A stretch of 64,000 bases of DNA from Tolypothrix brevis GSE-NOS-MK-07-07A. Its GTDB lineage: Bacteria > Cyanobacteriota > Cyanobacteriia > Cyanobacteriales > Nostocaceae. A program made the translations under genes and the position numbers. This document shows, one piece after another, positions 18,081 through 24,450 of the stretch. The notes beneath the pieces were generated by a model, which searched no databases, was not told the origin of the DNA, and saw only the letters and a program-made list of their open reading frames with translations. Position 1 is the first letter of the stretch; every line of letters begins with the position of its first letter. The stretch is from assembly GCA_019358985.1 (NCBI GenBank), contig JAHHIJ010000035.1, forward strand, positions 1 to 64,000, given 5' to 3'.

Positions 18081-18258
18081 TTAGACATCTGCGAAAATTA
18101 ATTATGCGTTGTCCGAAACCCTTGTAGAGACGTAGCACTGCTACGTCTTTTTTGGAGATGCCTATTAGACATAGGAGTGAAAATTAATTATGCGTTGCCC
18201 GATACCAAGAGACGTAGCAGTGCTACGTCTCTACATTCATTCATATTCGGAGATGTCC
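18081..18258. mobile_element. Two tandem copies of a ttagacat / agatgtc MITE
   Basis: Copy one (18081-18165) and copy two (18165-18258) share ttagacat, then gaaaattaattatgcgttg, a gtagagacg/cgtctctac palindrome, and a ggagatg(t/c)c end. The palindrome cores are tagcactgcta and tagcagtgcta. Other members lie at 26797-26880, 27000-27064, 32735-32821, 50296-50411, 57156-57227 and 61055-61149. The ends are inverted repeats (ttagacatctcc / ggagatgtctaa in consensus). Confidence 0.7.
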
Positions 18259-18294
18259 ATTGTAGAGACGTGACCGTGGAACGTCTCTAAGGAA

Positions 18295-18348: not shown

Positions 18349-20328
18349 TTATTTTGCGGCTTGTTCTGTCAGCTTGGTGAGGACTTCATTTGAGCGTTCG
18401 ACGAAGGATTTCATTCCTTCGGCGTCAAAGCCTTTTTGAGACATCAGTGCCAAATCGTAGACGTGTTGGCAAATCATGTTCACCAACTGACCTGTGGGCG
18501 ATTGACCATCACCTTGAATTATACTGCCTTGGTTGAGGTTCGCCAGATTTTGAATCAGGGGGTGAGCGGTATTCACTAGCAAAATGTGGTCTTCGGGAAA
18601 CCCTACGTTTTGTTGCTGCATCATGGCGTTCATTTCTCGCAGACGCCGCAGAATTTCTGGTAATAGTACCATTGCTGGTGGTGTTCCTTGGGGATCGTCT
18701 GATTTCAAAGCTTCGGTGCGGATGTTGAGTCTGGGTTTGTTGAGTGCTTTCTCAAAGAGTTCTTTGACGATTTCACTGCGAGTTTTGTTGGTTACGGGGT
18801 CTACAATTTCGCTCGCTTTGTCTTTATCGAGCAAGGTGTTATCTAAGTCGGAATCTACCCGCGTAAATTTAACATCGTTATATTCTTGCTCTAGAAAGTT
18901 GATAAAGTGGGTATCGATGAAGGAGTCCATAAATAGGACTTCTAAACCTTGGTTTTTATGCAATTCTACGTAGGTAGCTTGCGTTGCCGCATCGGTGCAG
19001 TAGAAAACGCGGTTTTCGTGGTGTTCTTTGTTACGTTCTAGGTATTCTTTGAGGGTGGTGTATGGGGATTCAGGGGTGGAATCAGCCGTTTTAGGGGTGA
19101 CATTTTGCCATGCATCGCCTTCATCTGATTGTACCTGTACTGCTGGGGTATCAGTGGTTTTTTCTGATAGCTTGGCGGTGGTGCGGAAGATGATGATGTC
19201 TTCGACTTGTTTTTTGAATTTGTCGTCGTTGAGAACGCCAAATTTAACGAAGGTGCCTAAGTCTTTCCAGGTGTTAATGTATTGTTCTCGGTTATCGCGA
19301 TAAACTTCTTTTAAGCGATCGCCTACTTTTTTTGCGATATAATCGCCTATTTTCCGCACGGTGCGATCGCTTTGCAAGGCACTCCGCGACACATTCAGGG
19401 GAATATCAGCGCTATCAATTACACCCCGCATCGGAGTCAAAAACTGCGGGATAATTTCTTCGCAGTTGTCACTAACAAAAACTTGGTTACAAAATAGCTT
19501 AATTTGCCCTTTTGTCGCATCCACATCTGGCTTCATCTTCGGAAAATACAAAATCCCGTTGATGATAAACGGATAATCTGTATTCAAATGCACCCACAAC
19601 AGCGGTTCTTCTTGGAAAGGATACAGGTAGCGGTAAAACTCTAAATAATCTTCTTGACTCAAGCTACTGGCAGATTCTCGCCAAGGTGCTTTCTGCCTGT
19701 TTAATACCTCACCCTCCAGTTTGATGGGTACTGGCATGAAATCGCAGTAAGTCTTGACAAGATTCTTAATTCGTGATGATTCTAAATATTCCTCTTCTTC
19801 CTCTTGCAGTGTGAGGGTAATGGTGGTGCCACGAGTTGTCCGGGGTGAATCTTCCAGGGTGTACTCTGGAGAACCATCACAAGTCCAGTGAACAGCTTGG
19901 GAACCTTCTTTATAAGATAAGGTATCAATTTCGACTTTTTGCGCCACCATGAAGGAGGAGTAAAAGCCCAGACCAAAGTGACCGATAATTGGTTGGTCTG
20001 ATTTGCCTTGGTACTTTTGAATAAATTCTTCGGCACTGGAGAAAGCAACTTGGGTGATGTATTTTTTCACCTCATCAGCGGTCATCCCGATGCCGTTGTC
20101 GGTAATGGAGAGGGTTTTGTTGTTTTTGTCAATGGCAATTTCTATTTCTGGTTCACCGATTTCACCTGAATATTCCCCAGCGCGAGATACCATGTTCAGT
20201 TTTTGGATGGCATCTACAGCGTTGGAAACCAGTTCTCGCAAGAATATTTGGTGGTCGGAGTAGAGCGACTTTTTGATAATCGGGAAAATATTCTCAGTAT
20301 GGATACTGATAGTGCCTTGTTCAAGCAT
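18349..20328 (-). CDS. htpG: Molecular chaperone HtpG (Hsp90)
   Basis: I start this protein at the ATG at 20328 (MLEQGTISIHTENIF, 659 aa), with AGGA four nt upstream; the frame is open ten codons further. The N-terminal GHKL ATPase has FLRELVSNAVDA (ATP/Mg Asn), SITDNGIGM and GHFGLGFYSSF; middle and C-terminal Hsp90 domains follow. HtpG is a cytosolic ATP-dependent chaperone, induced by heat and other stress in cyanobacteria. clpB lies nearby on the same strand, but a methyltransferase gene and a repeat array separate them. I did not find a clear CIRCE or heat-shock operator. Confidence 0.96.
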   Translation of the reverse strand: MLEQGTISIHTENIFPIIKKSLYSDHQIFLRELVSNAVDAIQKLNMVSRAGEYSGEIGEPEIEIAIDKNNKTLSITDNGIGMTADEVKKYITQVAFSSAEEFIQKYQGKSDQPIIGHFGLGFYSSFMVAQKVEIDTLSYKEGSQAVHWTCDGSPEYTLEDSPRTTRGTTITLTLQEEEEEYLESSRIKNLVKTYCDFMPVPIKLEGEVLNRQKAPWRESASSLSQEDYLEFYRYLYPFQEEPLLWVHLNTDYPFIINGILYFPKMKPDVDATKGQIKLFCNQVFVSDNCEEIIPQFLTPMRGVIDSADIPLNVSRSALQSDRTVRKIGDYIAKKVGDRLKEVYRDNREQYINTWKDLGTFVKFGVLNDDKFKKQVEDIIIFRTTAKLSEKTTDTPAVQVQSDEGDAWQNVTPKTADSTPESPYTTLKEYLERNKEHHENRVFYCTDAATQATYVELHKNQGLEVLFMDSFIDTHFINFLEQEYNDVKFTRVDSDLDNTLLDKDKASEIVDPVTNKTRSEIVKELFEKALNKPRLNIRTEALKSDDPQGTPPAMVLLPEILRRLREMNAMMQQQNVGFPEDHILLVNTAHPLIQNLANLNQGSIIQGDGQSPTGQLVNMICQHVYDLALMSQKGFDAEGMKSFVERSNEVLTKLTEQAAK

Positions 20329-20535
20329 GATTCCTAATGTTCTGTTTAAGTATCTCAATTATGACTCTGGCAAATACATCATAGCCATCTGCTTTCAAGG
20401 TTAAACCTGAAGAATGCTAAAGAGTATGATACCAATTAGGATTCTAAAGGCATAACTTAGGCGATCGCTTCTTTTTTCAGCGTTGTTTGCCCCCATAGAG
20501 TGATTCGGATTTCCCTACCCCTGCTAAATATCCTC

Positions 20536-21171
20536 CTACTTAGTATTTTTTTCCAATACTAAAAAATAGTGATATGGATGGATGGGGTCGATAAATTCTT
20601 CCTTGATGCTTAATCCTGCTTTGGCAACCGAGTCTAAAATCCGCTTTTTGGGATATCCTTTTAGCCCCATTTCCCAATAATGTTCGTTACAAACTGGTTT
20701 TGTACTCCAAAATTTTGGCACATGAAGTAATAAATACCTTGACCTATGTGCATAAGAATATTTAATTTGAAGTGCCAAAAATTGGGAATTATAGGGAATC
20801 GAAATTACTAAAAATTTCTTTGTAATAAATGCAAGTTGTTTTAAGGCTTCTTCTGATTGTTCATAAGGCAAGTGTTCTAATACCTGAAATAGTACAATCG
20901 CATCAAATTTATCTTTTAGTGTCGAAAAATCATTTGTTAGATCCAAAATTATGTCTGGTTCTAAGTTGGGGTCAATATCAGCAGTGGTGACATTGTAGCC
21001 ATTGCGTTTGAGGATATCCGTTAACAGGGAATTAAAAATCCCAATTTCCAGGATGTTTTTTACCTGTGAGCCTAATGTAAATATTAGACGCAATTGGTGG
21101 TGATAACTAATCAGCCTATCTTTTGATAAATATTCCGAATTTTTCAGGTTTAATGAGCTAATGAGTTGCAT
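20536..21171 (-). CDS. Class I SAM-dependent methyltransferase
   Basis: A 211-aa protein with a Rossmann-like SAM fold: VKNILEIGIFNSLLTDIL takes the place of motif I (the usual GxGxG is degenerate), TTADIDPN gives the acidic residue at the end of strand 2, and FDAIVLFQVLEHLPYE is motif IV with the EHL signature of small-molecule or glycan-linked methyltransferases. The substrate is unknown. It stands alone between clpB and htpG; the 94-bp repeats begin about 165 nt upstream of its start. Confidence 0.75.
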   Translation of the reverse strand: MQLISSLNLKNSEYLSKDRLISYHHQLRLIFTLGSQVKNILEIGIFNSLLTDILKRNGYNVTTADIDPNLEPDIILDLTNDFSTLKDKFDAIVLFQVLEHLPYEQSEEALKQLAFITKKFLVISIPYNSQFLALQIKYSYAHRSRYLLLHVPKFWSTKPVCNEHYWEMGLKGYPKKRILDSVAKAGLSIKEEFIDPIHPYHYFLVLEKNTK

Positions 21172-21299
21172 AAAATGGACTGACTAAAGTTATGGGTGAG
21201 TAATTAAATTTTTCCCAAAAAATCAGTCCGAGTAACAATTTTAGGTTAAAAATATCTTTGTCATTACCAACAGCCTGGGACTTAAGTCCCAGTCTGATA

Positions 21300-21656
21300 G
21301 CTAAAGTCGGATAAATCCGACTCAAATTATATATATTGTAAAGACGTTCAGGCGGAACGTCTCTAGGACGGTTACTATTCTTCCCGCGACTCGGACTCAA
21401 ATTATATCATGTCCGACAAATCATATATATTGTAAAGACGTTCCGGCGGAACGTCTCTACGACGGTTGCTATTCTTCCCGCGACTCGGACTCAAATTATA
21501 TCATGTCCGACAAATCATATATATTGTAAAGACGTTCCGGCGGAACGTCTCTAGGACGGTTACTATTCTTCCCGCGACTCGGACTCAATTATTATTATGT
21601 CCGACAAATCATATATATTGTAAAGACGTTCCGGCGGAACGTCTCTACGACGGTTA
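21300..21656. repeat. 94-bp tandem repeat (about 3.7 copies) derived from the clpB 3' end
   Basis: The string tgtaaagacgtt recurs at 21337, 21431, 21525 and 21619, exactly 94 bp apart. Each unit contains a hairpin of arms agacgttcc / ggaacgtct with loop ggc (the first copy has one change), the string actattcttcccgcgac and an AT-rich ttatatcatgtccgac segment. The string actattcttc is the complement of the final codons of clpB (Glu-Glu-stop plus two bases), so each unit carries a copy of the clpB end. The last copy runs into the real clpB stop. Confidence 0.92.
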
Positions 21657-24314
21657 CTATTCTTCGCGCGACAATGTGGTAATTTGTGACACTGGCACCT
21701 TAGCGGTCACTTTTTTGTTAAAGGTGAGTCCGTTATCGCCTTTGTCGATTATAATAGTGTCGCCAGAGATAAAGGTGTTCTCTAACAACTTGGTAGCGAT
21801 CGCATTTTCTACTTCTCGCTGAATTGCCCGTTTGATGGGACGTGCGCCATAAACTGGATCGTAACCGATTTCTACTAGGCGATCGCACGCCGCTTGCGAT
21901 ATCTCCAATGATATTTTTTGGTCTGCTAGTAAATTTTGCACCCGTTTGAGTTGAATCTGGACGATATGCCGCATTTCCGCACGACTGAGGGTGTGGAAAA
22001 TAATTATATCATCGACGCGGTTAAGAAACTCTGGGCGAAAGTGCGATCGCAAAGCTTCTGTTACCCGCTTTTGCATCATGTCATATTTGGAGTCATCACC
22101 AGATACATCCAAAATGTATTCGCTACCGATGTTACTGGTCATGACAATGACGGTGTTTCTAAAATCAACTAATCTCCCCTGCGAATCAGTAATTCTACCG
22201 TCATCTAAAACCTGTAACAAAAGGTTAAATACGTCAGGATGCGCTTTTTCCACTTCATCCAAAAGCACCACCGAATAAGGACGACGGCGAATCGCTTCCG
22301 AAAGTTGACCGCCTTCTTCATAGCCTACATATCCGGGAGGCGCTCCCACTAAGCGGGAAACCGAATGTTTCTCCATATACTCGGACATATCTAAGCGCAC
22401 CAATGCATCACTAGAATCAAAGAGAAACTGCGCTAATGTCCGTGCTAGCTCGGTTTTCCCCACTCCAGTGGGTCCCATGAACAAAAATGATCCAATTGGA
22501 CGACCTGGGTCTTTCATCCCCGCACGAGCGCGACGAATTGCCGCTGATACCGCTGCTACAGCTTCCTCTTGCCCAATAACTCGTTCGTGCAAATGGCTTT
22601 CTAATTGCAGTAACTTTTGCCGTTCTGATTCCAAAAGGCGATTTACGGGAATTCCTGTCCATTTGGCGACGATTTCGGCAATATCAGCTTCAGTGACTTG
22701 TTCCCGCAGTAAGGTAGTACCTTGGTTTTGAGTTTCCAGAAGTTGCGCTTCTTTGACTTCCAACTCCCGCTGTACTCGCTCCAAATCGTCATATTTTAGC
22801 TTGGCAGCTTTATTAAGATCGTAAGCGCGTTCGGCTTGCTCAATTTGTACCCGCAGCGCTTCTTCTTGTTTCTTTAACGCGCTGATAGCTTCTAATACCT
22901 GCTTTTCGCCTTGCCATTGCTCATTAAATTTCTGCTGTTTTTCAGTTAAATTGGCGATTTCTTGCTCAATTCGGTCTAAACGCTCTTTTGTTTGCGGCGT
23001 ACCTTTCTCTTCCCCAGCCAATGACAGCTTTTCCATTTCTAGCTGCATTAAACGACGGTCAACAATTTCTAATTCCGCAGGTTTGGAGGTAATTTCCATT
23101 TTCAACTGTGCTGCGGCTTCGTCTACTAAGTCGATCGCTTTATCTGGCAAAAAGCGATCGCTTATATATCTTGATGATAATGTAGCGGCTGCGACTAACG
23201 CCGAATCAGAAATCTTTACATTATGATGCACTTCGTAACGTTCTTTCAAACCGCGTAAAATGGAAATGGTATTTTCCACGCTCGGCTGATCCACAAATAC
23301 TTGCTGAAAACGTCTTTCTAATGCGGCGTCTTTTTCGATATACTTACGGTATTCATCCAAAGTTGTCGCGCCAATACAACGCAGTTCTCCCCGCGCTAAC
23401 ATTGGTTTGAGTAAATTCCCGGCATCCATTGCTCCTTGTTGGTTAGAACCTGTACCAACAACGGTATGCAACTCGTCAATAAATAAAACTATTTGACCGT
23501 TTGATTCAGTAACTTCACGTAAAACTGCTTTTAAACGGTCTTCAAATTCACCTCGATATTTTGCCCCAGCAATCAAACTACCCATATCTAGGGAAATTAA
23601 CTGGCGGTTTTTCAAAGATTCGGGAACGTCACCGTTAACCATGCGCTGTGCTAATGCTTCAGCGATCGCTGTTTTACCTACCCCAGGTTCCCCAATTAAT
23701 ACCGGGTTATTCTTACTGCGGCGCGATAATACTTGAATTACGCGGCGAATTTCATCATCGCGTCCTATTACGGGGTCTAGCCTACCAGCTTTTGCTTGTT
23801 CTGTCAAGTCTCTACCGAACTTTTGCAAAGCTTCGTAACGAGATTCTGGAGCTTGATCGGTTACTTTTTGGCTACCACGAACGGTTTTGATCGTCGCTTC
23901 TAACTTTGAAGAATCCAAATTAAAAGCTTTGAACATTTTGCGTCCGATGCGATCGTCTTCGGCAAAAGCCAGAAGCATGTGTTCTACAGAAATGAAGGAA
24001 TCCTTCATTCTAACTTTGGTTTCTTCGGCTCGGTCTAACATCATATCTAAATTGCGACCAAGATAAAGCTGTTCATTTTTGCCAACTTTCGGCTGACGTT
24101 GGATAAATGCTTCAACTTGCTGCTGCAAACGGAACGGATCAACCTCACATCGTCCGAGGATTCGTGTTGCTAATCCTGTGGGTTCTTCTAATAAAGCAAT
24201 CATTAAATGTTCAACATCTAATTGCTGTTGTTGATAAGCACGAACTACATCCTGAGATTTAACGATCGCTTCCCAGGCTTTATCAGTAAATTTATTTGGA
24301 TCTGTAGGCTGCAT
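21657..24314 (-). CDS. clpB: ATP-dependent disaggregase ClpB
   Basis: 885 aa from the ATG at 24314 ([17 protein letters not shown]); the frame is open 20 codons further but that part does not look like ClpB. Order: Clp N-domain, AAA1 with Walker [10 protein letters not shown] and Walker B LFIDELHT, the long coiled-coil middle domain (about residues 400-525), AAA2 with GPTGVGKTE and the [19 protein letters not shown] loop, and a C-terminal D2-small domain. It works with DnaK to dissolve aggregates after heat stress. The middle domain distinguishes it from ClpC. Its final codons lie at the border of the 94-bp repeats. Confidence 0.96.
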
Positions 24315-24352
24315 CTTTAAATAATTTAGGATTTTAGATTTTAAATTGGTAA

Positions 24353-24450
24353 TTGGGCATTGGGCAATGGGCAATGGGCATTGGTAATAATTCTTTTTCT
24401 AGTTCCCAGTCCCCAGTCCCCAGTCCCCAGTCCCTATTCCCCATTCCCTA
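24353..24450. repeat. Heptamer-type short tandem repeats
   Basis: Between clpB and the porin gene, attgggc/aatgggc units are followed by four ccccagt heptamers and then ccctattccccattccc. These short tandem repeats are typical of heterocystous cyanobacteria. They fill the whole spacer upstream of clpB, so any clpB promoter must lie within or beyond them. Confidence 0.8.

Follow-up and report, generated by a model that had tools for sequence, protein, structure and literature searches.

The heat-shock gene clpB in the stretch analysed here (contig JAHHIJ010000035.1 of Tolypothrix brevis GSE-NOS-MK-07-07A, positions 1 to 64,000, called the window below) is followed by a tandem array in which the last 16 nt of clpB itself are repeated together with a hairpin. 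We propose, with a probability of about 0.82, that the array derives from a miniature inverted-repeat element, of which a decayed remnant persists and which bore a dispersed palindrome similar to repetitive extragenic palindromes (REP) and small dispersed repeats (SDR); the remnant would have been amplified together with its host flanks. It is a known kind of bacterial repeat, palindromes of the REP/SDR type reiterated with flanking DNA, and not a new system. Coordinates are those of the 64-kb window, G000 is the genome bearing it, G001, G002 and G004 are relatives, and L-numbers denote individual stretches.

Structure of the array

Tandem Repeats Finder (TRF) detected a single array at 21323-21672, with a period of 94, 3.7 copies, 95% matches and a score of 635. 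Read in the clpB sense, every unit opens with GTCGCG[C/G]GAAGAATAG and the four unit starts are exactly 94 nt apart, so that TRF and the unit alignment both agree with the preliminary description of this DNA, which had reported four units at exact 94-bp spacing, each with a clpB end and a hairpin. It had also remarked that the real clpB end differs slightly from its copies, and this is the case: the gene ends in GCGCGAAGAATAG and the three copies in GCGGGAAGAATAG. A 94-bp unit is composed of 16 bp of clpB end, 65 bp corresponding to the right part of the element described below (from TAACCGTC to CGGACATGATAT) and 13 bp of downstream flank; alignment with other copies of the element showed that its left ~43 bp are absent from the clpB units. 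Units aligned with each other over 82-94 positions show 2-6 point changes, and the distal one is 19 bp shorter. A CRISPR (clustered regularly interspaced short palindromic repeats) array was ruled out, as the units are alike throughout and present no variable spacers. Searching Rfam at gathering scores gave no match within 20000-22500, and PLSDB in distant mode no plasmid match to the array.

The clpB 3' flank in relatives

The comparison of clpB 3' flanks in relatives, which the preliminary description had proposed as a check, was performed on 29 fetched orthologue loci, of which 28 with a flank of 500 nt were used (L042 ends at a contig end). Within these 500 nt, only two loci have the palindrome of the array, called here the TTCC palindrome: that of G004, where it is exact, and that of G001, where one base is changed. 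In G004, two units follow clpB and the duplication junction, TTTGAGTCCGA-GTCGCGG, is identical to that of G000; these units hold 5 and 2 hairpins at 28-bp spacing, as nested copies. G001 presents one truncated copy of the element 184 bp after the clpB stop, its clpB end is single, with the homologous sequence GTCGCGGCAAGAGTAG and no array, and 40 nt beyond the stop there is a further hairpin, alike in its outer arms but not in its inner sequence. In G002 (L015) the clpB end and its flank differ, there is no element, and an unrelated hairpin with a T-run, plausibly an intrinsic terminator, follows the stop, while in G011 (L028) a hairpin of TAGC type lies 53 nt after it. Related genomes show one-, two- and four-unit states.

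Because clpB of G001 has a homologous end without any array, the gene end is the source of the repeated segment, which gives a direction to the earlier claim that a segment with gene end and hairpin had been multiplied. Most likely, the duplication ran from the gene to the array in the line that led to both G000 and G004, and the growth of the array was then separate in each. The Arg codon at the gene end reads CGC in the G000 gene and CGG, also Arg, in its three copies, in the gene and the copy of G004 and in the G001 gene. By this comparison, the array copies retain an older gene-end letter, and it is clpB of G000 itself that changed synonymously. The G004 copy reads CAAGAA, like CAAGAG of G001, and this single base hints that the copy was made before the Gln codon of the gene became Glu.

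The palindrome as a dispersed repeat

The palindrome core AGACGTTCCGGCGGAACGTCT, with at most 2 mismatches, gave 694 forward and 697 reverse matches in the 6.52-Mb genome G000, versus 0 for the reversed control; the two counts concern the same sites, since the reverse complement of the pattern is almost identical to the pattern itself. As the preliminary description says, the clpB hairpin was multiplied with the gene end, but it is not a signal belonging to clpB: it is one of these ~694 dispersed palindromes, a genome-wide repeat that the description had not noticed. Four other members of the genus have 39, 140, 173 (in a 54% complete genome) and 289 matches; in all, matches are present in 14 of the 59 genomes searched (G000 counted), and the 54 genomes from other genera include 45 with no match.

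The genomic setting of the palindrome was studied on two samples, the first of 464 kb, made up of the window and 20 stretches, and the second, larger, of 1.264 Mb, with open reading frames (ORFs) called mechanically. A strict pattern finds 57 cores in the 464 kb; they form 39 clusters, of which 31 consist of a single core. TTCC clusters are mostly extragenic, with 2/33 inside ORFs after 6 edge cases were dropped, and only one of the 31 intergenic clusters lies between divergent genes (P ~0.0015 versus intergenic length). The outer arms AGACG/CGTCT also enclose other inner sequences, chiefly TAGCACTGCTA and TAGCAATGCTA; the hairpin family is therefore broader than the TTCC palindrome, which spans 21-29 bp.

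A miniature element of ~99 bp

Alignment of the flanks showed that some copies of the palindrome sit midway in an element of ~99 bp with matching ends, ATATCATGTCCG.. and ..CGGACATGATAT. In the 1.264 Mb, 13 pairs of such ends lie 40-320 bp apart: ten enclose at least one TTCC arm (two of these ten having one left end in common, in L052), one encloses another palindrome and two none. Eight of the ten measure 98-100 bp (L043, L052, L054, L190, L196, L199, L201 and L209), and the TTCC palindrome is exact in six and imperfect in L052 and L201. A search of the whole genome for the element end ATCATGTCCGNTNAATTA, tolerating one mismatch, gave 85 matches in forward and 76 in reverse orientation (control 0). 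Loose motif matching on 92 TTCC clusters found one or both element ends for 20 of them and other end motifs for 12.

The full element at L054:18520-18618 faces a clean empty site in all three relatives (G001, G002 and G004), and since it is absent from the same site there, it probably moved in after the four lines parted. Eight palindrome clusters of L054 were compared with these three relatives: the sites of two are cleanly empty in every relative, two more clusters are absent from all and one is common to all; another two are absent from the one or two relatives in which the site could be resolved, and the last could not be resolved.

Six matches to Y1_Tnp are present in G000: three resemble IS200/IS605 loci, one is similar to a REP-associated tyrosine transposase (RAYT; L083) and two lie in a broken gene. 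No AGACG..CGTCT palindrome was found within ~1.5 kb of the RAYT-like gene (L083) or of the broken gene (L082/L084). A RAYT as mobiliser is unsupported in G000, where the analysis found no RAYT gene flanked by the palindrome. The Y1 transposase-like gene of L082/L084 (G000:C38:48594-48936) is split over two reading frames and apparently broken. A full copy of the element (L209:17185-17283, G000:C50) lies 161 bp from a match to an IS200/IS605-like tnpA (L079).

Proposed order of events

Comparing present-day sequences, we can propose the following scenario. An element of ~99 bp with the palindrome near its middle would have been inserted downstream of clpB in an ancestor of G000, G001 and G004. 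Its left ~43 bp would then have been lost and, in the line of G000 and G004, the remainder would have come to adjoin the clpB stop codon. Next would have come a tandem duplication with its junction between the downstream flank TTTGAGTCCGA and a site within clpB, 16 nt short of its end; with such a junction each new unit includes a gene end and a hairpin as well as 13 bp of flank. Once the two lines had split, growth would have brought the array to four units in G000, and in G004 the hairpin itself would have been multiplied within two units. The palindromes may have triggered these duplications through replication stalling, slippage or template switching; we infer slippage or template switching at hairpins as the most likely origin because many periods (18, 28, 29, 36, 41, 69, 94 and 104 bp) surround one palindrome. 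Changes in unit number by recombination between units should spare ClpB, since every unit of G000 ends the reading frame with identical residues and a stop.

Several observations weigh against this scenario. Loss of the left end of the element at clpB is something that we infer from alignment: this end is also degraded in G001 and no intact insertion is visible at the clpB locus. Of the 92 TTCC clusters, 60 have none of the three element-end motifs looked for, and the palindrome is therefore not always cargo of the element. The target-site duplication at the L054 element is readable as 2-3 bp at most, and the long end-pairs of L193, L201 and L204, judged by eye, have no transposase-like ORF, so the parent transposase was not found in them. 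The palindrome is also present beyond the genus, since the outside genomes G023 and G027 contain 43 and 17 matches, the former more than the genus member G001. Finally, the sister TAGC palindromes avoid divergent gaps less (6/36 intergenic clusters are found there), and in co-directional gaps, with the palindrome types pooled, only 28/46 clusters are nearer to the 3' end.

Features of the clpB locus

The features of the locus are collected in Table 1. Downstream of clpB and on one strand with it come the methyltransferase-domain gene and then htpG. At 18128-18286, about 60-200 bp downstream of htpG, three palindromes of the family are present (two of TAGC type and one of TGACC type), and thus both chaperone genes in the window have such repeats after them. 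Sites with GCGATCGC in the window sequence, like the best ClpB matches (at most 71% identity among the 80 stretches kept of 584), point to a cyanobacterial genome.

Table 1. Positions of clpB, its downstream neighbour and the parts of the array in the window
Feature	Position	Strand	Basis or remark
clpB (ClpB domains; 905 aa, as listed from TTG start)	21657..24374	-	stop codon TAG at 21657-21659
clpB final 16 nt GTCGCGCGAAGAATAG, portion copied into the array	21657..21672	-	sequence, unit alignment
Unit 1, 94 bp: genuine clpB end, element remnant and 13 bp flank	21579..21672	-	unit alignment
Palindrome core AGACGTTCCGCCGGAACGTCT, unit 1; stem reaches GTAG..TTAC, 13 pairs	21624..21644	-	pattern match and fold
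Unit 2, 94 bp, bears copied clpB end GTCGCGGGAAGAATAG	21485..21578	-	unit alignment
Palindrome core, unit 2	21530..21550	-	pattern match
Unit 3, 94 bp, differs from unit 2 at 2/94 positions	21391..21484	-	unit alignment
Palindrome core, unit 3	21436..21456	-	pattern match
Unit 4, distal, 75 bp: lacks 19 bp of element right end; continues into single-copy flank GAGTCGGATTTATCCGAC	21316..21390	-	unit alignment
Palindrome core, unit 4; one stem mismatch, 11 pairs	21342..21362	-	pattern match and fold
Methyltransferase-domain protein, 211 aa, next gene downstream of clpB, same strand	20536..21171	-	ORF list and domains

RNA folding and alternative explanations

The 381-nt RNA strand folds with an energy of -138.8 kcal/mol, versus -95.9 +/- 4.8 for 100 shuffled sequences (z -8.9, no shuffle as low), and the four hairpin variants folded separately range from -12.1 to -17.9 kcal/mol. 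In the minimum-energy fold of this strand, neighbouring units pair with each other; the four stacked hairpins previously envisaged after clpB are therefore possible as one option, but they are not the fold of lowest energy. A terminator scan found on the clpB strand no site combining a hairpin and a T-run, as an intrinsic terminator requires, and its only two hits were on the opposite strand (versus 1.4 +/- 1.2 in shuffles), so that the earlier term terminator-like is not supported for the hairpin. Because the fold is strong and the clpB strand has no T-run site, we prefer protection of the 3' end to termination: the likeliest effect in the cell, suggested tentatively by these folding models, would be a passive one, in which hairpins with stems of 11-13 bp after the stop hinder the 3' decay of the clpB mRNA and do not terminate transcription.

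Could the array instead be a functional terminator or stabiliser of the clpB mRNA, multiplied under selection to tune heat-shock expression? The strong fold (z -8.9) and the position directly after the clpB stop speak for it, as do the separate rise of the hairpin number in G000 (4) and G004 (7) and the fact that hairpins of other sequence follow clpB in G002 (with a T-run), G001 (at 40 nt) and G011 (L028, at 53 nt). We nevertheless consider it unlikely, since the clpB strand of G000 has no T-run site, the same hairpin occurs hundreds of times elsewhere, with arrays after unrelated genes too, and no TTCC palindrome is found in the first 500 nt after clpB at 26 of the 28 loci. That a mobile repeat carries GAAGAATAG and gave clpB its 3' end and stop is far less probable still. 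An lnt-like gene in L206 does end within a hairpin unit, and GTAG repeats are reported in PMC3733652 to give stops to other ORFs; the dispersed copies of the element that were aligned carry other letters to the left of AACCGTC, and the homologous end GTCGCGGCAAGAGTAG without array in G001 largely refutes this origin for clpB. Short repeats at exact spacing are classic assembly traps, and the contig of the window begins inside another repeat, which might suggest that the assembler repeated one true unit. However, the units differ by point changes and the distal one lacks 19 bp, which argues that the array is no echo of a single unit, and the same junction is found in G004. We find such an artefact very hard to credit, the copy number being given as assembled.

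Other arrays and captured gene ends

Tandem arrays of period >=20 were surveyed in the 1.264 Mb, and 27 of the 155 found contain a hairpin of the family. Among these 27 arrays, 16 are intergenic, 3 lie within ORFs, 2 over predicted gene starts and 6 over gene 3' ends, with overlaps of 1, 1, 4, 16, 18 and 46 nt; for the 128 others the numbers are 58, 58, 6 and 6, respectively, with 3'-end overlaps of 1, 1, 6, 9, 11 and 31 nt. When the window is left out, because it was chosen for its array, an overlap with a gene 3' end is present in 5/26 hairpin arrays versus 6/128 of the rest (P 0.02, Fisher test). The contrast is weaker for overlaps of at least 4 nt (P 0.09) or at least 16 nt (2/26 versus 1/128, P 0.07), so the data hint at an excess of hairpin arrays at gene 3' ends but do not establish one.

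Like the end of clpB, that of at least one other gene was captured: at L062:9625-9820, the final 18 nt of a SIS-domain gene, with the stop, open a 98-bp unit that is present as two identical copies. The lnt-like gene at L206:11490-11579 ends in a duplicated hairpin unit (46 nt), so that the element gives the last codons and the stop, the reverse of the clpB case. At a contig end, L011:1-274, which was found by similarity and lies outside the 1.264-Mb sample, a 143-bp unit in 1.9 copies seems to take in the last ~19 nt of an ORF of 466 aa. It may be a third capture, after those of clpB (16 nt) and of the SIS-domain gene (18 nt). The idea that the palindrome is a duplication hot spot, now and then pulling neighbouring gene ends into arrays as spare last codons and stop, is rather unlikely; if it were true, the number of copies could change freely and gene conversion could rewrite C-terminal codons with the gene unbroken.

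Truncated forms of the palindrome are also reiterated. Eight copies of an 18-bp unit, TTTATCCGGTGGAACGTC, corresponding to half of the palindrome, occupy positions 1-145 at the contig start, and the unit resumes at ~282-300; the assembly therefore broke inside a half-hairpin array. At L048:10624-10938, 23-bp units in 13.7 copies are each a palindrome truncated at one side.

Relation to known repeats and significance

Bacterial miniature inverted-repeat transposable elements (MITEs) resemble the present element by its size of ~99 bp, its matching inverted ends, the lack of visible coding capacity and the empty site in relatives; in contrast with them, only the right part persists at clpB and no parent transposase was found in the three long end-pairs. 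The SDR of Nostoc and its relatives are said to be very small mobile hairpin repeats of 21-27 nt, often located in minitransposons and nested in their own copies. The likeness here is with that general description only, through the small hairpin, the setting in a mini-element and the nested copies. PMC4390886 cites these SDR from Elhai et al. 2008, and PMC6006769 describes cyanobacterial subclasses of TnpA-REP with repeats of GTAG type.

The closest comparison concerns the GTAG-tagged REPs of filamentous cyanobacteria (Di Nocera et al. 2013, PMC3733652), which are described there as short, high-copy and mostly extragenic palindromes, many with a 5' GTAG, whose clusters occur as tandem reiterations that take in variable lengths of flanking DNA and whose ends supply stops. 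The palindrome of the clpB array is likewise short, of high copy number (~694) and mostly extragenic. Two differences stand out: GTAG is unpaired at one end of those repeats, whereas here the 5' GTAG/GTAA/GTAC commonly pairs with a 3' CTAC/TTAC/GTAC, and a RAYT gene is flanked by repeats there, whereas none so flanked was found in G000. Among the papers that the literature searches listed, no report of a gene end multiplied in such fashion was found, and a search with the stem letters gave no title on such repeats among the 15 listed of 143 matches.

The clpB array offers a well-dated example of small palindromic repeats that grow by tandem duplication and carry coding sequence along. The 16-nt clpB tag marks the direction and the order of events, and sequence tags of this kind could serve to measure the frequency with which duplications are seeded by hairpins in cyanobacteria.
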